A stretch of DNA of 64,000 nucleotides from Novosphingobium sp. Gsoil 351 (GTDB lineage: Bacteria > Pseudomonadota > Alphaproteobacteria > Sphingomonadales > Sphingomonadaceae), in assembly GCF_009707465.1 (NCBI RefSeq), contig NZ_CP046120.1, positions 3,687,501 through 3,751,500 of the forward strand. Reading direction: 5' to 3'. A model generated the notes under the pieces. That model saw only the letters and a program-made list of their open reading frames with translations. It was not told the origin of the DNA and did not search any database. The position numbers and the translations under genes were made by a program. Shown one piece after another: positions 4,031-37,776 of the stretch (positions are counted from its first letter, which is position 1; each line of letters opens with the position of its first letter).

Positions 4031-4804
4031 ATGAGCAGACCATTCACCACTCTTTGCGCGGTGGCACTCGGCATGATCGCCACCTCTCCAGCGCTTGCAG
4101 CAACCGTCCTCTTCACGGGCGGGAGTTCGGCGCTGGACGGCACTAACGGCAACGTCCGCGCGTTCTCGAGCGGTGGCATCAGCGTTCAGGCATCGGCCTG
4201 GACATGGAATAATGATGTTCTTGAGCAGGCTTATCTCGGCTATTATTCGTCCGGTCTGGGCGTCACCAGCAATAGCGACGGCACCGGCGCAAGCAACAAC
4301 AGCCACACTGTGGATAACGTCGGCCCTGATGATTTCATTCTGCTGGTGTTCAATCAGCTGGTGAACATCTCGTCCGCCCGGCTGACCCAGTTCGATGTGA
4401 GTAGTACCATTGACGACAACGACGCGACGGTCAGCTACGCGACGGTGGCCAACGCGTTTGTCTCGCCGACGCCGGCTACTGTGCCGATCAACAGCCCCCT
4501 TTTCGGCGCGCTCCAGATCGGCGGTGCGCTCCAGAACAACGACTACACGGTCTCGGGGCACAACTCGGCACCCTACGACACCATGCTCAATTCGGCGGGT
4601 CTTGTCGGCAACGTGTAGATGATTGGGGCCGCGAGGCAAAACCCGGATTCGCGAGACGACGGCTTCAAGCTGGGTGCGATCACCGTAAGTGCGGCGGTCC
4701 CGGAACCGGCGACCTGGGCGATGATGCTGATTGGCTTTGGCTTTATTGGCGGCGCAATGCGGAGTCGCGGCAAGGTGCGGCGCCGCGTCGCATTTACTTT
4801 GTGA
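4031..4804 (+). pseudogene. PEPxxWA-CTERM protein split by an in-frame amber codon
   Basis: The first 196 codons give a signal peptide (cleavage expected after SPALA near residue 24) and an exported beta-rich domain of unknown role. A TAG at 4616-4618 then stops the frame. In the same frame, directly after it, come about 61 more codons with NPDSRDDGFKLGAI and the anchor VPEPATWAMMLIGFGFIGG plus an Arg-rich tail. Without the stop it would be a normal PEPxxWA-CTERM protein of about 257 residues. As it stands the product would be secreted without its sorting signal. The start is ATG 4031, eight bases after a G-rich ribosome binding site. Confidence 0.85.
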
Positions 4805-4946
4805 GCAAAGGCAAAAGGCAGAACAATTCAGCCGCGGTCCAGAGCGGCGCGTAACCAGGCTTCCCACTTCCGGCGTTTTTACCCCAGCGAACCATCGCCC
4901 AAACCCAGGACGAAGGTGAAGCCAGCCAACGCCTCGAGCGCGGCGG

Positions 4947-5162
4947 CTACTCGAACAGGGTGGGGTGGGCACCGGCCAGGTCCCATCCCGCGGTTAACTC
5001 GAAGGAGTCGAGCCGCTCGGCGAGATAAAGAGCGAGCCAGCGGATGGCCTTTGTCCGATGATAGCGGTCGGCGTGAGTGAGCGCTGCAATGGCGGCGGGC
5101 GGGCTGCAGGCGAGGGCGACCTCAAGGTGGGTCGCCAGACTCTCGGGGTCGACTCGGGTCAT
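4947..5162 (-). CDS. Small hypothetical protein, 71 residues
   Basis: Not recognised. From the ATG at 5162 the product is a soluble, Ala/Leu-rich, probably helical protein (SLATHLEVALAC, KAIRWLALYLAERLDSF). The frame could start 27 bases earlier. The composition is protein-like, but the ribosome binding site is weak. It stands alone between the broken PEP-CTERM gene and a gene-free stretch. Confidence 0.4.
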   Translation of the reverse strand: MTRVDPESLATHLEVALACSPPAAIAALTHADRYHRTKAIRWLALYLAERLDSFELTAGWDLAGAHPTLFE

Positions 5163-5818
5163 AGCGTTCTTGGAACATAATAAGAACACCGTATCAACTG
5201 CGGTGAGGCATCCGTCGCCTCCGGTCTCACATGTGCGGTTCGTGCATCACCAGCTACACCACGCCCCGGGACAGGACCCCCAACTATCAAGCTGTTGGAC
5301 TGCGTTAGGGAGTGAGGGGAACGGCCACGATCAAACGGAAACATCGACCTGCTCGTCAGCCAGCCCGCACTGCACACCTTTGAGACTTAACAAACTCAAG
5401 TTCCCAAGCAGGTCCGTACCCGGCCTGAGGAACATATCCGTTGCTGGTATGGCGACTTGTCTTGCTCCCGATTACAGTCTGGGACTTACCGAACCACAAT
5501 TCGAAAGTAGGCCCGTGTCGCTTGATGCAAAATTCGCTGGTTCAAGGGAAGTCCCCTTGCCAACGAACTCACGCTGCACCCGCAGCGCGCGCGCGAGCAG
5601 GCGCTGGCGAGTTCGATTGAGGCCGTGAAACCAGCCGAGGGTGGAGGCAGCTTGGCAATGGCCGCTCTCGTTGTCACGGCAAGCTAAGGTGTGCTCGGAA
5701 GGTTTTCGACCAGGCCGGGACGGCCGAAGTTCGACTGAGCTCTCCCCCACCGCATTACACGAATTCGATTGCGCACTCAGGAATGATCGGCGAGCGCTGA
5801 GAGGGCGGGAATGACGCT
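5163..5818. other. No supported gene
   Basis: Several open frames cross this stretch on both strands, but none has a good start, a protein-like composition or a recognisable match. It is probably decayed DNA. The promoter of the gene at 5819 must lie near its right end. Confidence 0.4.
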
Positions 5819-7159
5819 GTGACATCCCCGATGCTCGTGACGCCTGACGGCACCGGGAAGAGCTCGGACGCGCTCAACAACCTGCGGCTCCGGCTTCTGC
5901 GACTTTGGCGGTACTGGGCTTTTCGGCGTACCTTCTACTTCATTTCTGCGCTCGTCGCCCTTTGGTTTGCCATGACTAGTGAGAGGCCTTGGGTAGAATC
6001 GAGGAGTGCCCCTACTGCCGAAGAGGCTGGCGCTGCTCGGTCCGCGCTTTGGCAACTACGCGGTAGAAGCTCTGGTCTCGCTGAGGGCATTCCGGTCAGG
6101 CTGTCCGACACCGAGATGGCCGGTATCAGCGCGCTGGTCAGCCACGGACTGCATCCCTGGCGATTGAAAATGACGGCACGGCATGGCCAATTCGAAGTTC
6201 AAACTAGTCGCCCCCTAGTGGCTGGACGTTGGCTCAACTTGCGGGCCACTTTTGCGGGCGAAAGCACAGGATTTCCATCACCTCAGCTGTCAGCGGGCGT
6301 TATTACTCTGCCCGCCAGCCTAGGTCGGTATCCCTTTGAACTGGCCCGCTGGGTGCTGACATTAAGCGGTACTGACCTTGCCCCGCTCGACGAGATCTTG
6401 CGGGCCGTCGTCGTCGATAAGAATGTCGTGAGCGCGACCCTAAAACTCCCGAGCAAGACGGGGTTAGTCGATCGACTAGCTGGCCTGTACGGCAACGCAA
6501 TCGACTCCAAATCTGTGGTCGAGCTGTATTGCGAGCTTACGGCCCAGCAGCGTGCAAAGCCCGAGCGCGACTTTGCAGCTCAGGTCCGACGAGCCTTCGC
6601 TTCCAGCAATGTTCCGCCTTCTCCCAGTCGCAATGCAGCTACCCTAGTCGCCTTGGCTATGTTGGTCGGCGACGAGAAAGCGGGCTACCTCGCTGGAGTT
6701 GAACCAAGCCAGACAAATAGCTGTCGCATCAATCCTCCCACGGTGACGCTTTATGGCCGGGGTGACTTGCCAAAGCATTGGGCGTTGTCGGCCGCCATTT
6801 CAGCAGCCCAAGGAACGCAGCTTGCGCGTGCCGTAGGCGAGTGGAAAGAGCTTGCCGATAGCGTCTCCCCGCAATCGAGCTTTGCGGCTAACGACCCGTC
6901 TGGCTTCTCCTTTGTCGATTTGGCAGCGGACCGGGCGGGGGTTCAGATAGCAAAGGTCGCGATTGCACCGCAGTCCGCCAGCGCGACAGCGAAGTGGCTC
7001 TCAATTGCCACTGCGGATCAGCTTTTGCCACAAGTGGTGCTGCAAGGGCCGGAAGGGATTACCGAGGGCGAGTTCAAACGTCGGTTCGGCGCGCTCGATG
7101 CGAACCGATATCAAACCGCGGTTGCCGTGATAGACCGCGCGCTGGCCACCGCTCGGTAG
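5819..7159 (+). CDS. Membrane-anchored protein of unknown function, 446 residues
   Basis: I do not recognise the family. The N terminus is a short Arg-rich cytoplasmic segment (LRLRLLRLWRYWAFRR), followed by one hydrophobic helix at about residues 40-52 (FYFISALVALWFAM). The remaining 390 residues should face the periplasm. This part has no Cys cluster or obvious catalytic motif, and mixes beta-rich and helical segments. Start choice is open between ATG 5819 and the ATG at 5831. The gene is intact and long, unlike its decayed neighbours, which argues for selection. It stands alone, so context gives no role. Confidence 0.7.
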   Translation: MTSPMLVTPDGTGKSSDALNNLRLRLLRLWRYWAFRRTFYFISALVALWFAMTSERPWVESRSAPTAEEAGAARSALWQLRGRSSGLAEGIPVRLSDTEMAGISALVSHGLHPWRLKMTARHGQFEVQTSRPLVAGRWLNLRATFAGESTGFPSPQLSAGVITLPASLGRYPFELARWVLTLSGTDLAPLDEILRAVVVDKNVVSATLKLPSKTGLVDRLAGLYGNAIDSKSVVELYCELTAQQRAKPERDFAAQVRRAFASSNVPPSPSRNAATLVALAMLVGDEKAGYLAGVEPSQTNSCRINPPTVTLYGRGDLPKHWALSAAISAAQGTQLARAVGEWKELADSVSPQSSFAANDPSGFSFVDLAADRAGVQIAKVAIAPQSASATAKWLSIATADQLLPQVVLQGPEGITEGEFKRRFGALDANRYQTAVAVIDRALATAR

Positions 7160-7509
7160 ACGCGCTGGTGGCTATGGCCGGCGGGAGCTCGCTCTCTGGG
7201 TGCCTCACAGACGAAAACCCGGTAATTAACGGTGAGTGCCGCGCCGGTCGCCTTTTGCTGTGCTTTTGATTGGTGGACACGATCGATTCATCCTCCATTG
7301 ACGTGGATCTCCGGCAATTGGCATTCGAGTGATCTGCACGAGCGGATCGCGGATCACGTGTATTCTGCTCTTTCCTGGCGCGAACCGCCGCGGCGCTTCC
7401 GGCTCGGTGCGAGTTGAGCAGCGAACCGGTACAGCGGGCGCCACGAACGGGATGGGCGGCGCTGGCGCGACACGGACGTCCCCCCGGCAATGGCAAGCTG
7501 GTACTGCGC
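7160..7509. other. No supported gene
   Basis: A gap between the membrane protein and the IS630 relic. Overlapping frames on both strands give low-complexity products and no family match. Confidence 0.4.
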
Positions 7510-7917
7510 ATGGCGCGGGTGATTGCCTGGGCTGAGGCCGAGGACGACAACTCCGTGCCTGAGGTGGCGGTCTGGCTGAAGACCGAAGCCAGCCCCACGG
7601 TGCATCACGCTACACTTTTTAAGGACCTGATCACAGCCGGTCTTAGCTTGGAAAAGACTGTGCTGGCATCGGAGTACTGATGCGAGGATTTGCGGCGGGC
7701 ACGGCCGGACTGCCGGATGCACCCACTGCCTTTGATGCAACGTGGCCCCCATCGCCTAGAGTTCGTCAACGAGACCGCAACCTTCACCAAGATGATACGG
7801 GTGAAGGGGCGAGCGCGTAAAAAAAGTACACTTCTCCATGGGCGCCCACCGTACGAACACGGAAACACCCAGACTTTCATTGCCAGGCTCAGAGCCGATG
7901 CTCTGACCATCCTAGAT
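7510..7917 (+). pseudogene. IS630-family transposase relic
   Basis: In one frame, broken by a TGA at 7678-7680, the sequence shows VPEVAVWLKTEA, then GLSLEKTVLASE (usual IS630 text LSYKKKTLHASEQDR), then after the stop RLEFVNETATFTKMIRVKGR (usual RLVFLDETWATTxMTRRYGR) and HGNTQTFIARLRADAL (usual HGHWKTTTFxAALR). The first catalytic Asp has become Asn in FVNET. The C-terminal DDE residues are missing. This is a dead fragment. Confidence 0.7.
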
Positions 7918-8110
7918 TGTCGATCGTCCGGTGATCTGGGAGACCAGGCTGTCCAAGATCGAGGTGCAGGTCAGAACCCTGCATCAAAAGCGGCTGGGGG
8001 TCCAGAAGCGGAAAGCACCTCAGTCACTGAAATCTTTCAGCTCTGAACCGCCCAGGACTCGAAAGCCGGTCACATTTCAGCTGAAACCGGGTCTCAATAC
8101 AAGGAAACAA

Positions 8111-8140
8111 ATGCGCGCCGAAGCCGGATTCGGCGCGCAT
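8111..8140 (-). terminator. Rho-independent terminator of the PEP-CTERM gene
   Basis: A perfect 12-base stem (ATGCGCGCCGAA with its complement, loop of 6) lies 27 bases past the stop of the gene at 8168-8815. On the minus strand it is followed by a T-rich run. Confidence 0.8.
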
Positions 8141-8167
8141 CTAAAAGAGCTAATCGAAATTCACTGT

Positions 8168-8815
8168 CTACGAACTGAACCGAACCCGGGCTACTCTAGA
8201 ACCGCCACGACGGCGCATCACCGTCCCAATGCCCGCAAACCCGATCAGCATCATCAACCATGCAGCAGGTTCCGGTACAGGCACCGCGACGTTGTCAATT
8301 TCAAACGAGTTCTTCGAAGATTCGAGTCTAAACCCATTGAATAGCGTGTCTCCCGTTCCGAACGCCTGAAAAAGGCCATTCGTTCCGGGGTCAACCTGAT
8401 CCCCGTTAGCGGGAGTGAAGAAATCGCTGCCAGGAATTACCGTTTCCAGCCCATCACTCGTCAGCAGAGTCAACGTGTTGTAATCGTCGATTGATCCCCA
8501 ATCGAAGCTGAATGCGGAGACCGGATTGAGGAAACTGATCGTGGCCATACCACCAGCCAGGACAGAGAGATATTTGGTGCCGGCAGGCGTAGAATTTGCC
8601 GGAGGAGCACCATTGCTGTCGCCGGGAGGACTTTTAATCTGCACAGATGAACTCAGCACCAAACTGGCTGGAGTTGTTGAGTCGAAATCGTACACGACTG
8701 CCTGACCGGCGGGCGGGCTGGAACCACCGGGGGTAAAGCTGATCATCGTCGCGGCGTTCGCTACACCAGCGGGAAGTAACGCCATTGCGCCCAAAAACGC
8801 GAGAGATTTACGCAT
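8168..8815 (-). CDS. PEPxxWA-CTERM sorting domain protein
   Basis: A 215-residue exported protein. It begins with a signal peptide (MRKSLAFLGAMALLPAGVANA, cut near residue 21) and ends in the sorting signal PVPEPAAWLMMLIGFAGIG plus an Arg-rich tail. Such tails are removed by an exosortase, and the proteins are thought to reach the cell surface or the exopolysaccharide. The middle part (FDWGSIDDYNTLTLL, DNVAVPVPEP) is a beta-sandwich-like domain common in this group. I chose ATG 8815 because GGAG lies eight bases upstream. The longer frame start at 8890 lacks a signal peptide at the N terminus. Confidence 0.85.
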   Translation of the reverse strand: MRKSLAFLGAMALLPAGVANAATMISFTPGGSSPPAGQAVVYDFDSTTPASLVLSSSVQIKSPPGDSNGAPPANSTPAGTKYLSVLAGGMATISFLNPVSAFSFDWGSIDDYNTLTLLTSDGLETVIPGSDFFTPANGDQVDPGTNGLFQAFGTGDTLFNGFRLESSKNSFEIDNVAVPVPEPAAWLMMLIGFAGIGTVMRRRGGSRVARVRFSS

Positions 8816-9249
8816 GACCAAACTCCAACAAAACCGAGGAAAACTAGATTGCGCCCACTCTCGACCCTTTGGCCGATTCGAAGTCACCATACCTGTCGAA
8901 AAAGCGAAAGGGAAGGTTAACTAACAGAGAGATAGCGTTGCTGGCCATTGGGTTGCCATCTTGTCCCAGATTGAAACGAAATCCTGGCAAGGGACGAACT
9001 TCGCGTTGCCGGTTATTCCCCCGCGGTGACGGTGGCTGGTCGCCGATTGCCAGGGATATCAATCGCGTGTGGATGACGGCTTGATAGAATGACTAGGAAT
9101 GTCGGCTCCCAAAGATTGCCGTCTGCGCGGTCTAGGCGCCAGCCAGCTCGCGCAACGCCAGAATCTTGGGCTCGTTCGCCTTTTTGAGCTAACTCACTCG
9201 TGGCAGCTAAGCGCCCAGCCGCCTCATTTGAATACGTGAGCACCGCGCG
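8816..9249. other. Intergenic, decayed
   Basis: It holds the promoter region of the PEP-CTERM gene at its left end. The right part runs into IS21 relic DNA. No gene is supported. Confidence 0.4.
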
Positions 9250-9454
9250 CGCGCAAGACAATACCAAGGTCCAGAACGCCCTCCGTCTCGGGAAGGCCGG
9301 CGTGCTCGCGGCCCAGCTCTCCGGCCTCGACTTCGTCGACTGCGAAGAGCTGGGCTATCCGCCGTTCGCCCACTCGTAGGCCCGGCGGCTGTTCCACCTC
9401 GTCAGGAGGCTCTACGAGCGCACTTCGGCGATCGTCACCACCAACCTGGCGTTC
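9250..9454 (+). pseudogene. IS21 istB relic, central piece
   Basis: The plus strand reads LDFVDCEELGYPPFAHS, a TAG at 9377-9379, then RLFHLVRRLYERTSAIVTT and NLAF. This is the central ATPase region of IstB (usual LDELGYLPF with LLFHLISRLYERTSVIVTTNLAF). Similarity stops abruptly at about 9454, exactly where the IS66 relic on the other strand begins. Confidence 0.75.
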
Positions 9455-9661
9455 CCGAAAATCTCGCCGCCATGCGTAGACCTGAGAAGGATCAAGCCCA
9501 TGCCGACGTGCCACGGCGCTGACGCCCTCGCGGCCAGAATAGCACTCCGCGAAAATCGAAGCCTTGACCTCAGGCGGCCAGTCACGGCGCTTGCCCGCAC
9601 CCGTGAACACCTCGAACCGCTGCACGCCCCTGCTCACAGGATTATCACCCGAGATTATCAT
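9455..9661 (-). pseudogene. IS66 tnpA relic, N-terminal HTH piece
   Basis: From an ATG at 9661 the minus strand gives FEVFTGAGKRRDWPPEVKAS and VSAVARRHGLDPSQVYAWRR, the helix-turn-helix of an IS66 TnpA of a different type from the one at 897. The frame then crosses into the istB relic, so the rest of the protein is not TnpA. No tnpB or tnpC follows. Confidence 0.75.
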
Positions 9662-21082: not shown

Positions 21083-22542
21083 TCACCATGGGCGCGTACG
21101 CAGCCGTAGCGCGCGCTTCACCCTGCCGCTCGCTGTGCGTTCCTTGAGAATCCGCTTCCAGTGGATGAGTTGGAACCGCACGAACTGGCTGAAGCTGTCG
21201 ACCTGATCGTCGTAGCGGCCCGCAGGAAAGGCTTTGAGCTCATTGCGGAAGTCTGTGAGCCACGGGGCTTCTGCAGGGAGTAAAAACTGACCGGCTTCGA
21301 CTTCGGCCAAACAGCCTGCGAATCGCTCTTCCTTGCTGGCGGACGGACGGATCATCACTGGGCGGAAAGGACCGGTCGCCGCCAGTTCCTGGCAAAGGCA
21401 AAATCCACTGCCGGCCTTCTCGATTAGCACTAGGTCAGCAGTCCAACGGCGCTGCAGCTCGATTACCGCGCGCTTCAGGTCTGGAAAATCCAACCGATGG
21501 CGGAATACTTCCAGAAGGTACCAGTTTTTGGTTGCTAGCTCGAACCCCCAGGTGGTGCAGACCGAATAGTCGCTGGTCGGCGCGGCCGACATGCCGGTGT
21601 CCCAGCTCTGCACGACTTTAAGAAAGCGATGCCGCTGGGGTGCCGTGCTGTAGGTCCCGAACCACTCCATACGGATGAGGTTGCCCTCTGGAGCGATCGG
21701 ATCCTGCTGGTACTGGGCGGAGAATACCGGGGAGCCCAAATCGCGGCGTAGTTGATCCAGCACAGCCAAGCTCTCGCGCTGGGGGTCCAGCAAGTCTCCG
21801 ACCATGCGCTTGTGAAACCGGCCCGCTCCGATGGCCACTTGCTCTTCCTTCTCGGCGATCGCCGGCAGGTTGAGGTGTTGGTAACCCTTTTCGAGCAGGT
21901 ACGCGGGTAGATCGTCCTCATGCAGCCGCTGCTGGATGGAGAGGATTACCCCGGCGCCCTTGGCGTCGAGCCGGGTTAATAGGGTATTGTCAAACCAGCC
22001 GTGCAGCTCCTCGCGCGTCGCCTGGCTGCGAGCCTCGTCCGCCTTCATGCAGTCGTCGACGATGATGATGTCGGCACCAAATCCCGTGACGCTTCCCCCA
22101 CCGAGACCGCCTTGCGAGATCCGCCGGCGGTGGTCACGAGTTCAAGCGCCCGGTTGCCTCCATCGCGAATCCGGGTTCCGGGAAAGTCCGCCTGGTACCA
22201 CGCCGCCTCCAGGATCGTGCGGGTCTGGTTCGAATGAAGCCGAGCAAGGTCCTGGCTATAGCTGGCGACCATGATCTTAAGGCCTGGATCGTGGCCCAAG
22301 AGCCAAGCGACGAGCGCAACCGACGCTGAAATCGATTTGAGGTGGCGCGGGGGAACTGTGATGACCAAGCGCCGGGTGCGGCCGGTTAGGACGCCCTCGA
22401 GCGCGTAGCACATCGCCTTAATATACCACGCAAGACGGAGCGGGGGCGCACCGGGATGGAGCGTCTCGAACACCTTCATGACGAACAGCGAAAGGTCTTG
22501 CCGTCGAGCGGCGGCCAGCGCGCTGGTCACACATACTGTCAT
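21083..22542 (-). pseudogene. Phage terminase large subunit, frameshifted
   Basis: TerL is the phage packaging motor and nuclease. The first frame (22542 leftwards) has the ATPase start with VTVPPRHLKS (Walker A type) and IMVASYSQDLA. Near 22094-22098, in a run of five G on the minus strand, one base is missing. The next frame then continues as GSVTGFGADIIIVDDCMKAD (Walker B), the coupling region SIQQRLHEDDLPAYLLEKGY, and the RNase H-like nuclease domain (VVQSWDTGMSA, GRYDDQVDSF) to 21083. Without the shift it would be about 486 residues, a normal length. The ATG at 22048 only restarts the second half. It overlaps the DUF5681 gene by four bases. Confidence 0.85.
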
Positions 22543-25416: not shown

Positions 25417-25430
25417 TGGCGGAGACGGAG
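25417..25430. repeat. Left attachment repeat (copy of tRNA-Ser 3' end)
   Basis: TGGCGGAGACGGAG, identical to the last 14 bases of the tRNA gene at 37763-37776. Flanking bases differ, so the match is exactly 14 bases. Confidence 0.7.
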
Positions 25431-25642: not shown

Positions 25643-26896
25643 ATGCCTCGCAAGCTCAGCAACGCGCTTACCCCGCTGGCAGTGAAGAACGCCAAGCCTG
25701 GCCGCCATGCGGACGGTGGTGGGCTGCATTTGTTGGTGAAGCCGACCGGCGCGCGCTCGTGGGTCTATCGTTTCATGCTGGCGGGCCGGACGCGCGACGT
25801 TGGCCTTGGCGCGGCTGGGCCGGGCGCAATGTCGCTTGCCGATGCCCGCGACGAGGCGGCGGCGCTGCGGCAGAAGGTTAAAGCCGGGACCGATCCCCTA
25901 GCCGAACGCGAGCGAGAAGCGGCTCAGGCACTCGCCACTGCTCAGGCGTCCAAGGTGGCCGGGACTACGTTCAAGGAAGTGGCGACCACCTACATCGCCT
26001 CGAATGAGGAGAGCTGGCGCAATCCCAAGCATCGCCAGCAATGGGGAAATACGCTTGCCAGCTACGTCTATCCGGTGATCGGCGACTTGGCCGTCGCGGA
26101 CGTGGAAACAGCGCACGTGCTCAAAATCCTTGAGCCGATCTGGAAAGGCAAAGCCGAGACTGCCAGCCGAGTGCGCGGGCGGATTGAAACCATCCTCGAT
26201 AGCGCCAAGGCGCGCGGATACCGCCAAGGCGAAAACCCGGCGCGTTGGCGTGGCCACCTTGCGCAAATCCTTCCCGCGCGCACCCGTCTGTCGCGCGGCC
26301 ACCACAAGGCCATCGCCTACGACGAAATTCCGGCATTTGTTCGCGCACTCCGCGCGCGCGAGGCGGTCGCCGCGCTGGCGCTGGAATTTACCATCCTCAC
26401 TGCTGCCCGCTCCGGCGAGGTGATCGGCGCACGCTGGAGCGAGGTCGATCTGGCCAAGGCCATTTGGACCGTCCCAGCGGACCGCATGAAGGCCGCGAAA
26501 GAGCATCGGGTTCCCCTGTCAACCCGCGCGGTGGCAATCCTTGAAAGCCTCCAGCCGTTGGAGAGCGAATGGCTCTTCCCCGGCGCGAAGGGTAACAAGC
26601 TGTCGGGCATGGCCATGGCGATGCTCATGCGCCGGATGAAGGTTGACGCGACCGTGCACGGCTTCCGCTCGGGCTTCCGCGATTGGGCAGCCGAGTGCAC
26701 CGCCTATGCCCATGAGGTCGCCGAAATGGCCCTGGCGCACACCATCGAAAACAAGGTGGAGCGGGCCTATCGGCGCGGCGACCTGTTCGAAAAGAGACGG
26801 CGGCTTATGACTGATTGGGCCGCCTATTGCGCCAGCGACGGCGGGGCTAGTGGGAAGGTTTCTCCGATCCGAAAGCCCTTTGAAAACCGCGCTTGA
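25643..26896 (+). CDS. int: P4-type tyrosine recombinase (integrase)
   Basis: A 417-residue site-specific recombinase that would integrate and excise the island. The N-terminal DUF4102 arm-binding domain (LTPLAVKNAKPGRHADGGGL) is followed by a core-binding helical domain and the catalytic domain with Arg256 (AARSGEV), His339 and Arg342 (HGFR), a second His near 365 (AHTIENK) and nucleophile Tyr376 (RAYRRGDLF). All catalytic residues are present, so it may be active. ATG 25643 has AGGGAG six bases upstream. It lies just inside the left att repeat. Confidence 0.93.
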   Translation: MPRKLSNALTPLAVKNAKPGRHADGGGLHLLVKPTGARSWVYRFMLAGRTRDVGLGAAGPGAMSLADARDEAAALRQKVKAGTDPLAEREREAAQALATAQASKVAGTTFKEVATTYIASNEESWRNPKHRQQWGNTLASYVYPVIGDLAVADVETAHVLKILEPIWKGKAETASRVRGRIETILDSAKARGYRQGENPARWRGHLAQILPARTRLSRGHHKAIAYDEIPAFVRALRAREAVAALALEFTILTAARSGEVIGARWSEVDLAKAIWTVPADRMKAAKEHRVPLSTRAVAILESLQPLESEWLFPGAKGNKLSGMAMAMLMRRMKVDATVHGFRSGFRDWAAECTAYAHEVAEMALAHTIENKVERAYRRGDLFEKRRRLMTDWAAYCASDGGASGKVSPIRKPFENRA

Positions 26897-31919: not shown

Positions 31920-32064
31920 TCACGCTGCCGGGTCAAACCGGACCGGCAGAAAACGACCTATTGCTGCCGTTCCCCGCTCATTGATGCGAAGGTTTGGAAT
32001 GGGGACGATTTCCGGCTGTCGGCTAACTGTTGGATTCTTACCACACTGCTGCTAAGGTCAAATC

Positions 32065-32187
32065 ATGACTAGAAAACGCGATATTTTAGCATGGGGGCTG
32101 ATTGGCCTTTTCGCTTTGGGCATCGTAGTTAACCGGCATTCTGTTCCACATTCGCTAGACACCACGATTAGCTACTTGGCCCGCTAG
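32065..32187 (+). CDS. Tiny single-pass membrane protein, 40 residues
   Basis: ATG 32065 (AAGG eight bases upstream) opens a short frame: a basic start MTRKRD, a hydrophobic helix ILAWGLIGLFALGIVV, then a polar end. The charge pattern suggests the N terminus stays in the cytoplasm. It converges with the SGNH gene, whose stop is 31 bases away. No family is known to me, so it may be chance. Confidence 0.4.
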   Translation: MTRKRDILAWGLIGLFALGIVVNRHSVPHSLDTTISYLAR

Positions 32188-32217
32188 CAACGAGGCGACG
32201 CCACAGGAGCGGCCAGT

Positions 32218-33393
32218 CTAGCGCCTGGTCTTATCCAACGTGATTGCCGTTTGGCTTCTTACCAGATCGTCCAGCGCCTTCCCCAAGCGATCATCGTTGG
32301 CGTCAGTGAAATGTCCGTCTGGAAGATAGCCGTTTACGTCGTTGGGCGAGATGAACTGGTGTGAACTTATGTAGGGCACATTGCTGGCTCGCAAAGCGGG
32401 CTCGACAGCTCGGAAGAGCACGTCCGAATATCCAAGATCATTGACCAGAAAGACAATTGGGATCCTGCCCTCGGCCCTGACATCGGCTGCGAATTTGAGG
32501 ATGATTGCCCGCGCAAGCTGAACAGCCTCGCTATCCTCGTTGAACTTGACGGGATCAAGAACGGCATGCTCGATTTTCTTGTGCCGGTCGGTGTTGTAAG
32601 CACGCCGAGCGAGGCGGGCCAGGGCAGAATGGTCCAACAGGTTCGACCGAAACGAGATGGAATCGAACAGCGGATCGTTTCTGGCGAAGAAATCGACGGC
32701 CCGCGACCAAGCGGCCGGGTTCGTAAGCGTTCGCTGATATTCCTCGAAGGAATCGTATGGTGGGTGAATCACTTTCAGCTCGCCATCGCGCACGACAAAA
32801 CGATCTCCGGTGTACGGCATTGGATTGTCGTTGTTCCACATGGTGGGCGAGAACGACGTGATCGCAGGCAGCAGATTCGTATTGAACGTCAAGACCACCG
32901 CAACGCTGCCCTTCCTCCCATCTTTGTCCCGAAGAAAAGCTCCGTATGACCAGTTCGACGATGCGCCAGGAGCCGCCACAGAACGCCAAGTGAGGTCGTC
33001 GGTGACCCGGACAAGAGCGTGCGCAAGGCGGACGGAATGGGAACCGCCATAAATGGTCACGGCGGGTTTTCCGGCGGCCCCACTGGGTTGAGATGCGATC
33101 AGGGGCTGATACCATCCGGAAAGGGTAATCGGTGCCGTTTGCGACCTGTCCGCCCTGGTCCTGCGCTGCAGCGAGCCCTCGGCCGATCGACCATATTCGA
33201 AGAACGATTGCAGGCGCGACGGCATGGTCTTCGGATCGTCAGGGTACGGAAAAGCCAAACCGATGAAAGTGTCGATCGCAGCAAGGCCCACGCTCGCCCA
33301 TGCGATAATTCCCAGCAGCGGCCGGAACGTCCACCTGGCGCGGCGCGCGTGTTCAAGATCAGAACTGGAAATAGATAAACTGTGCTGGCTCAC
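32218..33393 (-). CDS. SGNH-type protein, partner of the MBOAT acyltransferase
   Basis: About 391 residues. An N-terminal membrane helix (LLGIIAWASVGLAAIDTFIG) precedes a periplasmic domain of SGNH/GDSL type: TIYGGSHSVRLAHAL with the expected nucleophile Ser near residue 120, and LPDGHFTDANDDRLGKALDD with Asp and His near 360. In alginate acetylation (AlgX/AlgJ) and in DltD such proteins receive the acyl group from an MBOAT and pass it to the polymer. No ATG is near the 5' end. GTG 33393 is my choice, TTG 33408 is possible. It overlaps the MBOAT gene by about 35 bases. Confidence 0.75.
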   Translation of the reverse strand: MSQHSLSISSSDLEHARRARWTFRPLLGIIAWASVGLAAIDTFIGLAFPYPDDPKTMPSRLQSFFEYGRSAEGSLQRRTRADRSQTAPITLSGWYQPLIASQPSGAAGKPAVTIYGGSHSVRLAHALVRVTDDLTWRSVAAPGASSNWSYGAFLRDKDGRKGSVAVVLTFNTNLLPAITSFSPTMWNNDNPMPYTGDRFVVRDGELKVIHPPYDSFEEYQRTLTNPAAWSRAVDFFARNDPLFDSISFRSNLLDHSALARLARRAYNTDRHKKIEHAVLDPVKFNEDSEAVQLARAIILKFAADVRAEGRIPIVFLVNDLGYSDVLFRAVEPALRASNVPYISSHQFISPNDVNGYLPDGHFTDANDDRLGKALDDLVRSQTAITLDKTRR

Positions 33394-34930
33394 GGGACAT
33401 CTCAACAATCATGGCTGTGATCGAGGCGGCGAGAACCAAGCCGCAGGCGGCCAGTCCGATTGCATTAGGTTGCCATTTGATGAAGCGAGTCCCTTCCGGG
33501 AGGGCGACATTCTTCCATTGGTTCCAATTCACCGAAGGGCGATAGGCCCTTAGGATCTGCTGCGTGTTGGGCAGAAATAGGATGATGAACCACCCCACGG
33601 CGACGAACATCAGCAATTCAGGGCGGTAGGGGGCGACGGACGCGGGATCGATGTCGAAGCCGAGCAGCGTTCCGTAATAGGCCAATGCGCCCGACACGGT
33701 TTCCGAGCGGAACATGACATTGGCTGCGAGGACGCACAGGAGGGTGAGCAAGTGATAGAGAAGACGCTCGCCCCTTGCAGGCTCGTGCGCACCCTTCAGA
33801 CCCAGCCGCTTCCGCCTACGCTTCCTCGCATTGCGCCAAATCTCGTTGATCGAAACGTAGCTGGCATGGAGAATCCCGAACAACACATAATTCCAGCTCG
33901 CCCCATGCCAGATTCCGATGACGACGAAGGTTAGGAAAACCGGGAGCACGACTGAGGCGAAAAAGGTGCCTTGGGAGCCGAAGCGCCGTCTGACGGCGGC
34001 GCGGGTCAGCTTGAGCGACAGGGCTGGCAGGAAATAGCGAACCATGAACCGGTTGAGGGTCATGTGCCAACGCCGCCAATATTCGATGATGCTGTTGGCG
34101 CGGAGCGGCGAATGGAAGTTCAGGGGAAGTCGGATACCGAACATCCTCGCCGAACCGATCGCCATGTCGGAGTAACCCGAGAAGTCGAAGTAAAGCTGGA
34201 CGGTGTAAGACAGCACGGCAATCCAAGCCGCCAGGACGCCAGGATTGCCCCCGTCCGCGACCATATCGAACACCGGGTCGCAGGCATATCCGGCGTTGTC
34301 GGCCAAGACCGTCTTCTTGAAGAGGCCAATGGCGAAAATGACCAATCCCACCGTCAAATTGCTCGCCGTCCGAGATCCCAGGTGGGAGCTATCGAATTGG
34401 GGCTTCGTCTCCCCGTATAGGATGATCGGCCCTGAAATCAGCTGCGGGAAGAAAACGGACACCGCGGCGAAATCGACGAACCGCCCGCGCGCGACCTCCC
34501 CGCGCGAGCAATCGATCAGATAGGATATGCGTTGGAAGGTAAAGAATGAGATGCCAAGGGGAAGAACTATATTGAGTGCCTGAATCTTGGCGTCGGCGAC
34601 AACATTCACATTCTCGATCAGGAAGTTGGTATATTTAAAATAGACGAGCAACGCGAGATTGCCCAAAACTCCCACGTTTCGCAGAAGTGCGATCCGACTT
34701 AAGTCTTCTGCACCATAAGCCCGTATGATCGCACGCCCCAGCACATAGTTTACGACCACCGATCCGATCAAAAGAGGCAGGAACTTCGCGCTCATCCAAC
34801 TGTAGAAATACAGCGAAGCCGCTATAACGAAGATTTTTGCGGCGTCGCGGCTGACCTTTGCGAGCAGGTAAAACGCGATCAGCGACAGCGGCAGGAATGC
34901 AAAAAGATAGGGAGCGGAGTTGAATAGCAT
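33359..34930 (-). CDS. MBOAT-family membrane acyltransferase (AlgI/DltB type)
   Basis: A 523-residue multi-pass inner-membrane protein, the normal size for AlgI-like MBOAT. The fold landmarks are present: LPLGISFFTFQRISYLIDCS, FFPQLISGPI, YFDFSGYSDMAIG, EYWRRWHMTLNRF and the invariant His342 in GIWHGASWNY. Such enzymes move an acyl group from a cytoplasmic donor across the membrane. In DltB the donor is a carrier protein, in AlgI it is unknown. An ACP gene two genes upstream makes a carrier-bound donor likely here. The gap to the FkbH gene is 24 bases. Confidence 0.9.
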   Translation of the reverse strand: MLFNSAPYLFAFLPLSLIAFYLLAKVSRDAAKIFVIAASLYFYSWMSAKFLPLLIGSVVVNYVLGRAIIRAYGAEDLSRIALLRNVGVLGNLALLVYFKYTNFLIENVNVVADAKIQALNIVLPLGISFFTFQRISYLIDCSRGEVARGRFVDFAAVSVFFPQLISGPIILYGETKPQFDSSHLGSRTASNLTVGLVIFAIGLFKKTVLADNAGYACDPVFDMVADGGNPGVLAAWIAVLSYTVQLYFDFSGYSDMAIGSARMFGIRLPLNFHSPLRANSIIEYWRRWHMTLNRFMVRYFLPALSLKLTRAAVRRRFGSQGTFFASVVLPVFLTFVVIGIWHGASWNYVLFGILHASYVSINEIWRNARKRRRKRLGLKGAHEPARGERLLYHLLTLLCVLAANVMFRSETVSGALAYYGTLLGFDIDPASVAPYRPELLMFVAVGWFIILFLPNTQQILRAYRPSVNWNQWKNVALPEGTRFIKWQPNAIGLAACGLVLAASITAMIVEMSREPAQFIYFQF

Positions 34931-34954
34931 CGCGGGCCTATTTTCGCTATCTGA

Positions 34955-36865
34955 TCAAGCGGTCTGGTTGTCGTCGATCTTCATGGGAAGCTCGGGCGCC
35001 GCATAGCTTTCCAACGCAAGTTCCCAGATCGTCGCGCCGTCGGGGCAACTTTCGACCAGTGAAAATCCGAGACGTTCATAGAGGCCAGCGACCATCTGGT
35101 TTTTAGCCGTCGGGAGGTATGTGCCAACCAGCTTCGGCACCCCCTCCGCCAGCGCAGCAGCGGCAACATGCGCAAGCACTGCTTCCTCGACGCGGCGGCC
35201 CAGCACCCGACAGCTCATCAGCCACAAATCATTAGACCATTGCGATGTGCTTTTGTCGAAGGAAACGACGCTGATCATTCCGTTGTCGCCGAACTTGTCA
35301 GCGAGGCGGACCTGCATCGTAAATTTGTCGGCCGCATTTTCCATGCCGGCGATTTCTGCTTCGGTGTAACGTCGTGTCGTCAGATTGAATTGGTTCGACT
35401 TGTTGATGAGTTGGGCCACGCGCGCCCGCCCGATCGAATCGAATGGCCTGATCGTGCAGACCATGTCGAGGGATCGAAGATAGCCTTCCAGATCGGTCGA
35501 CGAGGCGAGCATCGAAGTGCGCTCGGCGTTGGCTTTGTAATACTCGGCACGCTTGCGATCCTCCAGCGAGATCGCAATTGCATCGAAATAACCGGCCAAC
35601 GCGAGGATGGTGGCGTATTGGGCGGGATCGTCGGTCAGTTCCGGGACCGCGACGAACGGCAATTCCCGCCGGATCAGCTCGCGTTCAAAGGGGTTATCGT
35701 CAAGGAACACCAGCGCGTCGATGCCGATATTCAGGCTCTGGGCGATATGCCTGATGTTGGTCGCCTTGTCCTGCCAATTGGCCTGGAACACCGAGATATG
35801 CTCTTTCCTCAGCAGCATGTCGGGATGCTCGCTGAACGGCCGCCAAGCCACCGCTTCGTCGTTCTTTGAACTGATCGCGATCACGATCCCGCGAGCACGA
35901 AGGTCCAGCGCTGCACGTTGCACCGAGAGGAATGCCTCGCCTTCGGCCGAACCCTGGCCGATCACAATGCCATCCAGCCCGTCATCGCCGATGACGCCGC
36001 CCCAGACGGTGTTGTCGAGGTCGAGAACGAGGCACTTGCGGGTCTTCCCCCTGATCGCGGCGACCGTCCGCGCGATGAGGTCCGTAAGCAGAGGAATGAA
36101 CTGAGGAGCGACGGGCAACTTCGCCGAATGCCAATGGACCGGATCGAGCCACCGTGCCGTGCCGACCGCAGCCGCGAACCGCGCTGCGTCGACGAGTACA
36201 ACGTCACTCTCACTGACCCACTCGACAATGCTGCGATTGAGCGCTTGCACCATTGCATACGGGCTCGAGGCCTCGGTGGCGTCGAGGCTGCCAAAGAGCG
36301 GCTCGACAGGCGGAACTAGCGTCTGCACCAGAATTGGCCCGGTCAGGGATGGCCGCAGACTTTCCGCGACAGCCTTGATGTAGGCGAGGGCGTGTTCGAC
36401 CTGCGCGTGGGCTGTGTCGGCATCGCTTGCGGCAGTGTTCAAATGAAGATCGCGGTAATCGAACGCTAGGAATGCACTGTCGAGACCGGAAGACCGAAGC
36501 TGGCTGGTCGGGTCCATCGCTTGTTCGAGAGACCGTCCATATTCCGCTTCCACGACATCGATGAGCACGAAGTGGCGTAGGCCTGAACCCGGGATCGCCG
36601 TCCCGATCAAACTCAGCGTGCCGCTTCCGATCAGGCCAAGCTTGAACCGCGCGAGCACGCCGCCCGCATCGCTTTGGCTGCGTCTTGCCGCGAGTTTGCC
36701 GAGACGTCCGAGCTGGTTGAGGTCGAGCGCATGATTGGCAAGGTCGATTAGCTCAGCGTCCGCCTCCGCATCGATGCCTCCTGTCCGACTATCGAGTTGT
36801 TTGCAACGTTGCCTGAAATCTCCGGGGGCGCGGCGCAGCCATCCTAGGTCCGCAAGTAAATCCAT
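34955..36865 (-). CDS. FkbH-type HAD-IIIC protein
   Basis: A 636-residue protein. The N-terminal third resembles the SGNH-like or unknown head of long FkbH proteins. The HAD phosphatase core has CLVLDLDNTVWGGVIGDDG with Asp282 and Asp284, IAISSKNDEAVAW and VFLDDNPFERELIRRELPFV. The C-terminal 150 residues look like a GNAT fold (NQFNLTTRRYTEAEIAG, GLYERLGFSLVE). Known FkbH enzymes take 1,3-bisphosphoglycerate and load a glyceryl group on an ACP. The ACP gene ends 12 bases upstream, which supports the same reaction here. ATG 36865 follows GGGCAGG. Confidence 0.85.
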   Translation of the reverse strand: MDLLADLGWLRRAPGDFRQRCKQLDSRTGGIDAEADAELIDLANHALDLNQLGRLGKLAARRSQSDAGGVLARFKLGLIGSGTLSLIGTAIPGSGLRHFVLIDVVEAEYGRSLEQAMDPTSQLRSSGLDSAFLAFDYRDLHLNTAASDADTAHAQVEHALAYIKAVAESLRPSLTGPILVQTLVPPVEPLFGSLDATEASSPYAMVQALNRSIVEWVSESDVVLVDAARFAAAVGTARWLDPVHWHSAKLPVAPQFIPLLTDLIARTVAAIRGKTRKCLVLDLDNTVWGGVIGDDGLDGIVIGQGSAEGEAFLSVQRAALDLRARGIVIAISSKNDEAVAWRPFSEHPDMLLRKEHISVFQANWQDKATNIRHIAQSLNIGIDALVFLDDNPFERELIRRELPFVAVPELTDDPAQYATILALAGYFDAIAISLEDRKRAEYYKANAERTSMLASSTDLEGYLRSLDMVCTIRPFDSIGRARVAQLINKSNQFNLTTRRYTEAEIAGMENAADKFTMQVRLADKFGDNGMISVVSFDKSTSQWSNDLWLMSCRVLGRRVEEAVLAHVAAAALAEGVPKLVGTYLPTAKNQMVAGLYERLGFSLVESCPDGATIWELALESYAAPELPMKIDDNQTA

Positions 36866-36877
36866 GTCCTGCCCTAA

Positions 36878-37120
36878 TCAGCTCGGAGACTTCGAGTTGA
36901 GAGCCTTGAGCAGGTCACCTACGTTATGCAGGCTCTCTACCTCGCGGCTGGTAAAGCGGACATTAAATCGCTGTTCGACTGTGACCATGAAACGGATGTG
37001 GTTGAGACTGTCCCAACCTTCGACATCGCGGGCGGTCGTTTCCTCGGTGATTTCCGCAACTTCATCATCGAAGACATCACGCACGATTTCACCGAGTTGC
37101 TCGATAGTGACTACTGGCAC
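36878..37120 (-). CDS. Acyl carrier protein
   Basis: An 80-residue acidic four-helix protein with the phosphopantetheine site GWDSLNH (Ser38) and the usual flank FMVTVEQRFNVRF. It should carry the acyl group made by the FkbH protein. I prefer the GTG at about 37120, behind a GGGGGT site, since it gives the usual ACP length. The frame could also begin at GTG 37162. It is the first gene of the leftward operon ACP, FkbH, MBOAT, SGNH. Confidence 0.85.
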   Translation of the reverse strand: MPVVTIEQLGEIVRDVFDDEVAEITEETTARDVEGWDSLNHIRFMVTVEQRFNVRFTSREVESLHNVGDLLKALNSKSPS

Positions 37121-37465
37121 AGCGATACCCCCATTCGATTCGCGCCTGACTAGTCTCGACACTCACTCTTGGAAACCTCTCACAGCCAGGCGAGCCTAAG
37201 CGGTTGAGGTTTCGACAGGAACGATAGGGTTCGTACAAGCTCTCGCTACGGTAATTCGTCGTAGGTAGGGGATCGCCTCCGCATCTGAGCTTGGAGGGAG
37301 GCCATATCGGCCCTTGGGGGGCGCCCACCCCCTCAGGTTTTTTCCGCAGCGATGCGCCGAACAATCACATCGTTCACGTCCTCGTTCCACCCATTGTGGT
37401 CATAGCCAACCAAAGGGGCTTGTTTGCCGCTTGCCAAATCGTTCCTGCTACGTTCTCAAGGCCGG
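37121..37465. promoter_or_regulatory. Divergent upstream region of the ACP operon with a hairpin and T-run
   Basis: No gene seen. At about 37313-37345 the plus strand has a G-run and C-run hairpin (GGGGG cgccca CCCCC) followed by TCAGG and six T. It looks like a terminator read to the right, yet no plus-strand gene precedes it. It may end an antisense or leader transcript. The ACP operon promoter should lie here, but I cannot place its boxes. Confidence 0.4.
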
Positions 37466-37762: not shown

Positions 37763-37776
37763 TGGCGGAGACGGAG
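37763..37776. repeat. Right attachment repeat within tRNA-Ser
   Basis: TGGCGGAGACGGAG, the 3' terminal 14 bases of the tRNA (minus strand, including CCA). It is the partner of 25417-25430. Confidence 0.7.

Follow-up and report, generated by a model that had tools for sequence, protein, structure and literature searches.

A carrier protein, FkbH, MBOAT and SGNH cassette in Novosphingobium sp. Gsoil 351: a probable carrier-fed system for acylation of an exported polysaccharide

A stretch of 64,000 nucleotides from Novosphingobium sp. Gsoil 351 (contig NZ_CP046120.1, positions 3,687,501 to 3,751,500 of the forward strand; hereafter the window) was analysed with regard to an operon of four minus-strand genes that encode an acyl carrier protein (ACP), an FkbH-type HAD-IIIC protein, an MBOAT O-acyltransferase and an SGNH-type protein. 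The operon probably specifies a carrier-fed MBOAT-SGNH acylation system in which an exported polysaccharide receives glyceryl from glyceryl-ACP, where we infer the acyl group, the docking of the carrier and the acceptor. It is most likely a hybrid of two known designs, being fed by a carrier as in Dlt and having a fused tyrosine shuttle together with an SGNH partner as in PatAB and AlgIJ. The genes and the sites within them are as follows, in window coordinates.

36878..37120, minus strand: ACP, 80 amino acids (aa), GTG start, Ser38 in GWDSLNH as the phosphopantetheine site
34955..36865, minus strand: FkbH-type HAD-IIIC protein, 636 aa, with FkbH_N, a HAD part (D282, D284, K334, D389, D390) and a conserved C552; predicted glyceryl-ACP loader
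33359..34930, minus strand: MBOAT O-acyltransferase, 523 aa, PF03062, with His289 and His342
33974..34063, minus strand: MBOAT residues 290-319, a long segment that replaces the LGGNR loop and corresponds in position to helix HC of DltB
33362..33379, minus strand: C-terminal FIYFQF of the MBOAT, an FxYxxF acyl-shuttle motif with Tyr520
32218..33408, minus strand: SGNH-type protein, 396 aa, with block I GGSHS (S123) and DGH (D364, H366)

All four genes were found at the place and on the strand given in an earlier note on this DNA. They run head to tail in the order ACP, FkbH, MBOAT, SGNH; 12 and 24 bp separate the first three, and the last pair overlaps by 50 bp. The ACP starts at the GTG at 37120, with a GGGGG stretch upstream, and its numbering with Ser38 in GWDSLNH is therefore as in that note; the assignment was borne out by this start and by a match to PF00550 (E 1.1e-7, Pfam scan run on a 94-aa frame). 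The FkbH protein scored 307.1 bits with TIGR01686 against a cut-off of 146.65, and Asp282 and Asp284, named in the earlier note, were conserved in 96 of 97 aligned FkbH proteins with one gap. Together with K334, D389, D390 and C552 these residues were conserved in 96 or 97 of the 97. PF03062 matched the MBOAT at E 5.7e-25 and its previously proposed His342 was present in 86 of 88 aligned rows, the other two having gaps. The SGNH protein gave no Pfam or NCBIfam match up to E 0.1; its Ser123, Asp364 and His366 were invariant across three copies. No AMP-binding match, as would mark a DltA-type loader, was obtained among the four operon proteins, and FkbH stands in that place.

The following order of events is proposed. 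FkbH would take glyceryl from 1,3-bisphosphoglycerate, which would give D-glyceryl, and as expected from its family would place it on the ACP, perhaps via Cys552. Glyceryl-ACP would then approach the MBOAT from the cytoplasm and dock at the DltB-like residues of about 290-319, as suggested by their sequence and position, and the MBOAT (His342) would pass glyceryl to its own Tyr520 in FxYxxF by analogy with PatA and DltX. The SGNH protein (Ser123, Asp364, His366) may take glyceryl from Tyr520 and esterify an exported polysaccharide outside the inner membrane, the acceptor being probably the polymer of a resident polysaccharide cluster some 38 kb off. A surface polymer already made by the cell would thereby receive from the island a second kind of acyl group. 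In the accessible part of a study of tetronate pathways, the loading of stand-alone ACPs with glyceryl is ascribed to FkbH proteins (PMC7489565). As no MaoC, SDR, methyltransferase or VOC gene was found in the labelled stretch around the window operon, plain glyceryl is the best guess for the acyl group and, granted the machine itself, a good bet. The earlier note had interpreted the operon as a Dlt-like system for glyceryl transfer to a surface polymer; the Dlt-like logic found support, and the glyceryl group and the polymer keep the standing of predictions. In the literature searched, which left most subscription papers outside its coverage, no description of such an FkbH-ACP-MBOAT-SGNH system was found, nor anything tying HAD-IIIC to MBOAT, FkbH to O-antigen, or glycerate-bearing exopolysaccharide to ACP and MBOAT. 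The one paper there to bring FkbH, MBOAT and an acyl carrier protein together deals with aeruginosins (PMC10143770). Titles on FkbH-like proteins with polysaccharide and acyltransferase concerned gene-cluster pathway software and cyanobacterial products, and those on MBOAT, ACP and HAD with polysaccharide had other subjects.

Recurrence of the gene set was evaluated on FkbH loci drawn by FkbH similarity alone, which comprised 18 loci and 80 whole-genome stretches, one of them a repeat. The whole-genome stretches were mostly those with the best scores (5 of 6 other-genome places, 35 of 43 rows and 40 of 89 rows, own genome and repeats included). A total of 98 loci including the window were labelled with profiles built from matches; L060 was dropped as the same locus as L051, and L086, a 4,988-aa frame, was left out of the tree and of the counts on 72 and 78 loci. 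An MBOAT lay within 3 kb of FkbH in 34 of 78 whole-genome loci, where random placement expects 0.28–0.46% per locus. Full flanks, meaning no less than 3 kb to either side, were available at 72 loci; of these, 37 had an MBOAT within 3 kb and 34 of those 37 also an ACP within 3 kb. The earlier note had named rare co-occurrence of the four genes elsewhere as speaking against its reading, and this neighbourhood count points to the contrary. MBOAT linkage followed similarity to the window FkbH, being found in 25 of 33 full-flank loci at 430 bits or more and in 5 of 25 below 300 bits. In the FkbH tree the window falls in a starred clade of 40 rows, with an MBOAT in 30, none in 6, and 4 undecidable on account of contig edges. 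On the MBOAT tree the label "FkbH-linked" needs at least 8 changes on starred branches, meaning that the link was gained or lost several times.

Single loci show the same genes in varied arrangement. At G030 the ACP and MBOAT genes lie together and the FkbH gene roughly 13 kb away, and an annotated plasmid record of Rhodobacteraceae SC52 has ACP, HAD-IIIC, MBOAT, a hypothetical protein and VOC, ordered as in the window. Two Sinorhizobium meliloti plasmids carry an MBOAT, a protein annotated as TonB-dependent receptor, ACP and HAD, so that a genetic model exists for a similar set. The so-called receptor of S. meliloti locus L204 has SGNH-like motifs on reading and no Pfam match; the annotation of these proteins beside MBOAT-ACP-FkbH (L204:2386-3615 and L205:8301-9530) is probably erroneous. 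A Paroceanicella plasmid has ACP, HAD, methyltransferase and VOC, with no gene annotated MBOAT in that stretch. Altogether 61 plasmid records had an FkbH match, 40 of them from Sinorhizobium, and four were inspected.

The sequence of the MBOAT suggests that it is served by a carrier. Its family profile matched DltB over positions 7-405 (E 1.8e-59), and according to the accessible part of a 2025 account of MBOAT-SGNH enzymes DltB receives its acyl group from the carrier protein (PMC12148441). The contact between DltB and DltC is described, in the part available of a second paper, as running via helix HC with Met302, Val305, Ile306 and Met309, plus Lys312 and Arg317 (PMC11035591). The corresponding place was compared between 49 FkbH-linked MBOATs and 39 unlinked ones. 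L169, drawn as unlinked, was counted as linked as its FkbH lies about 13 kb off on the same contig, and the unlinked set was chosen as not FkbH-adjacent, so that absence of FkbH there is selection and no evidence. The segment was of the long type in 46 linked proteins, of the GG type in 2 and unreadable in 1, as against 8 long-type and 31 GG-type (e.g. YIPLGGNR) in the unlinked set. The distance from the first to the second histidine, corresponding to His289 and His342, is 54 residues in the window MBOAT and 48 in DltB. It was at least 44 in 45 of the 47 complete linked proteins (the incomplete L017 and L136 being dropped) and at most 42 in 33 of 39 unlinked ones (Fisher p 2e-15, on rows that are related by descent). 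Net charge of the stretch 290-312 also differed (p 6e-5), but gaps there differ between the groups.

Distances of at least 44 residues are called long below and those of 43 or less short. Among 40 held-out MBOATs, 34 of them measurable, an ACP was found within 4.6 kb of four of the six long forms and of none of the 28 short ones, L232 at 43 residues being counted as short. One of the long forms, L231, is FkbH-linked, and without it the figures are 3 of 5 and 0 of 28 (p 0.0018). The six that could not be measured by pattern include L233, which has an ACP, and L228, which shows a GGNR loop. Two of the six long unlinked MBOATs, those of L152 and L188, lie no more than 2 kb from an ACP. The long form thus goes with an ACP nearby. 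The Dlt-like order of loader, carrier, MBOAT and SGNH protein that the earlier note proposed is supported by the recurring set and by this long segment where DltB binds its carrier.

A further feature, absent from the earlier note, is the FxYxxF motif at the MBOAT's own C-terminus, as in PatA and unlike DltB with its DltX. Within the final 12 residues, the strict form F.Y..F was present in 37 of the 49 linked MBOATs and in 38 of the 39 unlinked ones, and several of the 12 linked proteins that miss it are incomplete or have a near form. In the accessible text of the 2025 account the tyrosine of this motif bears the acetyl group in PatA, and in Dlt the motif is on DltX (PMC12148441).

The SGNH partner was characterised by structure prediction and by its relatives. 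A sequence search of the PDB gave nothing at E <0.1. An AlphaFold2 model from three sequences had a mean pLDDT of 50.7 with a better core, and the best PDB matches of this low-confidence model in Foldseek were Campylobacter jejuni Cj0610c and the PatB catalytic domain (8gr2, 8tlb), both at probability 1.00 with E 4.1e-3 and 7.3e-3. By a rough motif count, a downstream open reading frame (ORF) of at least 250 aa accompanies 36 of 49 linked MBOATs, 20 with both patterns, and 25 of 39 unlinked ones, 7 with both; the window protein, having DGH, does not match the DxxH pattern. The genome of the window has two PF03062 matches. The second MBOAT lies about 38 kb from the operon, outside the window, has a short loop (41) and no ACP found within 3 kb, and adjoins an SGNH paralogue 47% identical to that of the window. 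Its region also encodes a bacterial sugar transferase, a Polysacc_synt_3 (flippase-type) protein and glycosyltransferases. Close relatives of the window SGNH protein are otherwise rare. Besides the own genome, one of 384 genomes of the class had a match (E 8.6e-4, marginal). In another set of 37 genomes, made up of Tsuneonella troitsensis and 36 congeneric genomes, T. troitsensis alone had any, in two copies, the second among ORFs read as export, chain-length and exosortase genes. As the ACP, FkbH and MBOAT group with the FkbH-linked set and the SGNH protein with the resident polymer cluster, the donor half and the acceptor half of the system seem to have different histories.

Several results weigh against carrier-fed glyceryl transfer. 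No MBOAT was found within 3 kb in 35 of the 72 full-flank FkbH loci. When kinship was controlled for on a tree built without the segment columns, 3.3 pairs of 6 went the same way and 0.0 the opposite way with a median p of 0.25, so the association of linkage with the long segment has the expected direction and is not significant, there being too few pairs. No ACP was found near the long unlinked MBOATs of L165, L178, L179 and L182 or near the long held-out L229 and L230. Two linked MBOATs are short, that of L116, near which no ACP was found, and that of L075, which does have an ACP near. Net charge of the wider MBOAT region 296-330 showed no difference between linked and unlinked proteins. On the acceptor side, confidence of the SGNH model is low, none of its Foldseek matches reached 0.001, and an hhalign comparison of the SGNH profile with those of two further sets of SGNH proteins encoded downstream yielded nothing significant. 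The second T. troitsensis copy is a short frame of 285 aa with no MBOAT found beside it, and no polysaccharide genes were seen in the island on reading its ORFs.

The alternative that survives best, though it is clearly the less favoured one, is that the same machine carries another acyl group, FkbH loading something other than glyceryl, or glyceryl-ACP being converted to lactyl- or O-methylglyceryl-ACP by enzymes encoded elsewhere. In bryostatin biosynthesis, FkbH plus a dehydratase and a ketoreductase load lactyl. Among the 37 full-flank FkbH-MBOAT loci a MaoC-type gene was near in 14, a class I methyltransferase in 11 and VOC in 3, labels that rest on a Pfam run on one example each. As related loci so often add such a gene the acyl group probably varies across them; the cassettes of the window and of T. 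troitsensis are, however, among the 14 loci of the 37 that lack all three.

An ordinary acetyl-CoA-dependent MBOAT-SGNH O-acetyltransferase, with ACP and FkbH as mere neighbours that serve another pathway, is improbable. It would account for the C-terminal motif of PatA type, PatA using acetyl-CoA according to the accessible text of the 2025 account (PMC12148441). Moreover, an ACP was present at 20 of the 35 full-flank FkbH loci that lack an MBOAT, which means that ACP-FkbH has other uses. MaoC and SDR were present in 15 of these 35. Neighbourhood alone fits poorly, however, with an MBOAT linked to ACP and FkbH on several of its lineages, as counted above, and with a long segment that accompanies an ACP, held-out MBOATs included. 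As a separate observation, FkbH is accompanied by MaoC-SDR at L082, L083, L090 and L093, where no MBOAT was found near and where acyl-ACP made by FkbH perhaps serves a different purpose; L082 and L083 also carry ORFs read as nonulosonic-acid genes.

It is very unlikely that ACP-FkbH feeds a polyketide or nonribosomal peptide which the MBOAT then acylates: an FkbH domain and an MBOAT do co-occur in the suomilide and varlaxin clusters, as stated in the part available of PMC10143770, and relative L086 is one frame of 4,988 aa, but no synthase-sized ORF was seen near the operon in the window or T. troitsensis (by ORF size, with no synthase profile run), and an S. meliloti copy lies near an annotated glycosyltransferase and a capsular polysaccharide gene.

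The operon lies within a 12.3 kb element bounded by a 14-nt repeat of the 3' end of a tRNA-Ser gene, with the operon at the tRNA end and an integrase at the opposite end. The tRNA island described in the earlier note was thus recovered as an integrase-bearing element at tRNA-Ser. Its features are:

25417..25430, no strand: left att-like repeat, 14 nt that match the 3' end of tRNA-Ser
25643..26896, plus strand: phage-type integrase of the island
32023..37186, minus strand: operon cassette common to the window and Tsuneonella troitsensis, 84% DNA identity
37763..37855, minus strand: tRNA-Ser (gct), the last 14 nt of which (37763-37776) form the right att-like repeat

ORFs for CHC2-zinc, Toprim and DUF3987 proteins sit inside the element. 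The T. troitsensis cassette keeps its 84% identity over 5,167 bp in surroundings that differ from those of the window; near it are a GT25-like ORF and a protein that ends in a PEP-CTERM-like sequence, both named by reading of their sequences. Judged on these sequence comparisons, the four-gene cassette is mobile. That it is a decaying or silent passenger of the mobile element is scarcely probable, for although it sits on an integrase-bearing tRNA element and a simple scan of the region upstream of the ACP gave no sigma-70-like site on that strand, none of the four frames is interrupted, the expected residues are in place, and the three larger proteins, FkbH, MBOAT and SGNH, are 85-88% identical to the T. 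troitsensis copies.

Elsewhere in the window, an ORF left of the island (22045-22542) reads like part of a phage terminase, and a second phage remnant may adjoin. Small ORFs at 897-1283 and 9224-9661, between the polysaccharide genes and the island, read like parts of IS transposases. A pattern search returned five ORFs, at about 4699 (plus), 8275 (minus), 14989 (minus), 16953 (minus) and 19643 (plus), whose C-terminal ends are PEP-CTERM-like sorting signals. The genome may accordingly have an exosortase system.

Loci with other loaders suggest a wider carrier-fed class. L243, from the same phylum, has a long MBOAT near an ACP without FkbH and an AMP-binding ligase beside the ACP. At L241 a long MBOAT lies near an ACP, likewise without FkbH, with VOC and methyltransferase genes, and L233, whose MBOAT is the unmeasurable one mentioned above, has an ACP and a ketosynthase-III-like gene by matches under the cut-offs. 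The L243 genes (4605-9103) are in themselves a Dlt-like set with an adenylating loader, comprising ACP, ligase, long MBOAT and an ORF that is SGNH-like by reading with no Pfam match. Chances are about even that Gram-negative bacteria have a broad class of carrier-fed MBOAT-SGNH systems with exchangeable loaders (FkbH; AMP-binding ligase or others), in which the long segment at the HC place suffices, on sequence alone, to tell carrier users from acyl-CoA users and of which the window holds a mobile, minimal glyceryl version. Within such a class, FkbH with MaoC-SDR, methyltransferase or VOC would perhaps give lactyl, O-methylglyceryl or inverted forms. The accessible text of the 2025 account states that, Dlt apart, such pathways have no carrier protein (PMC12148441). 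If the proposal is true, that rule has many exceptions, predictable from the distance between the two histidines (at least 44 as against at most 43 residues). Bacterial polysaccharides that bear esters of glyceryl and similar hydroxy acids, a modification chemically known in gellan, would also gain a genetic explanation, and decoration of surface sugars would travel on a tRNA element as a four-gene cassette.

With respect to known systems, the link to gellan is a lead only, since its glycerate is of the L form and the D form is expected here. The part available of PMC9104527 describes gellan of Sphingomonas as an exopolysaccharide with L-glycerate groups and names no glyceryl transferase, and none was found in the literature searched. 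With the glyceryl-ACP branch of tetronate and methoxymalonyl pathways, as far as the accessible part of PMC7489565 describes it, the operon shares FkbH beside a stand-alone ACP. It differs from them in that no tetronate or oxidation genes were seen in the operon and the next step appears to be the MBOAT. The O-acetylation systems PatA-PatB, AlgI-AlgJ/AlgX and WssH resemble it in having an MBOAT with a C-terminal FxYxxF and probably in the SGNH-type partner, whose low-confidence model in the operon is closest to Cj0610c and PatB. PatAB/AlgIJ-type pathways are said in the accessible text of PMC12148441 to lack a carrier protein and use acyl-CoA; the operon includes an ACP, from which we infer its acyl donor. 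The window MBOAT has a longer segment at the place where 31 of the 39 unlinked proteins (a set without the PatA, AlgI and WssH sequences) have an LGGNR-type loop. Membership of Dlt (DltA, DltC, DltB, DltX, DltD; D-alanylation of teichoic acids) was rejected: the loader is an FkbH-type HAD protein and not an adenylating enzyme of DltA type, FxYxxF is part of the MBOAT, where Dlt has it on the microprotein DltX, and the MBOAT scored 164.2 bits against the DltB cut-off of 375 (TIGR04091). What the operon has in common with Dlt is a layout in which a carrier would feed the MBOAT and an SGNH-type partner would finish the transfer, and, at the DltC-binding place of DltB, a long segment in its MBOAT at which docking of the ACP is predicted.

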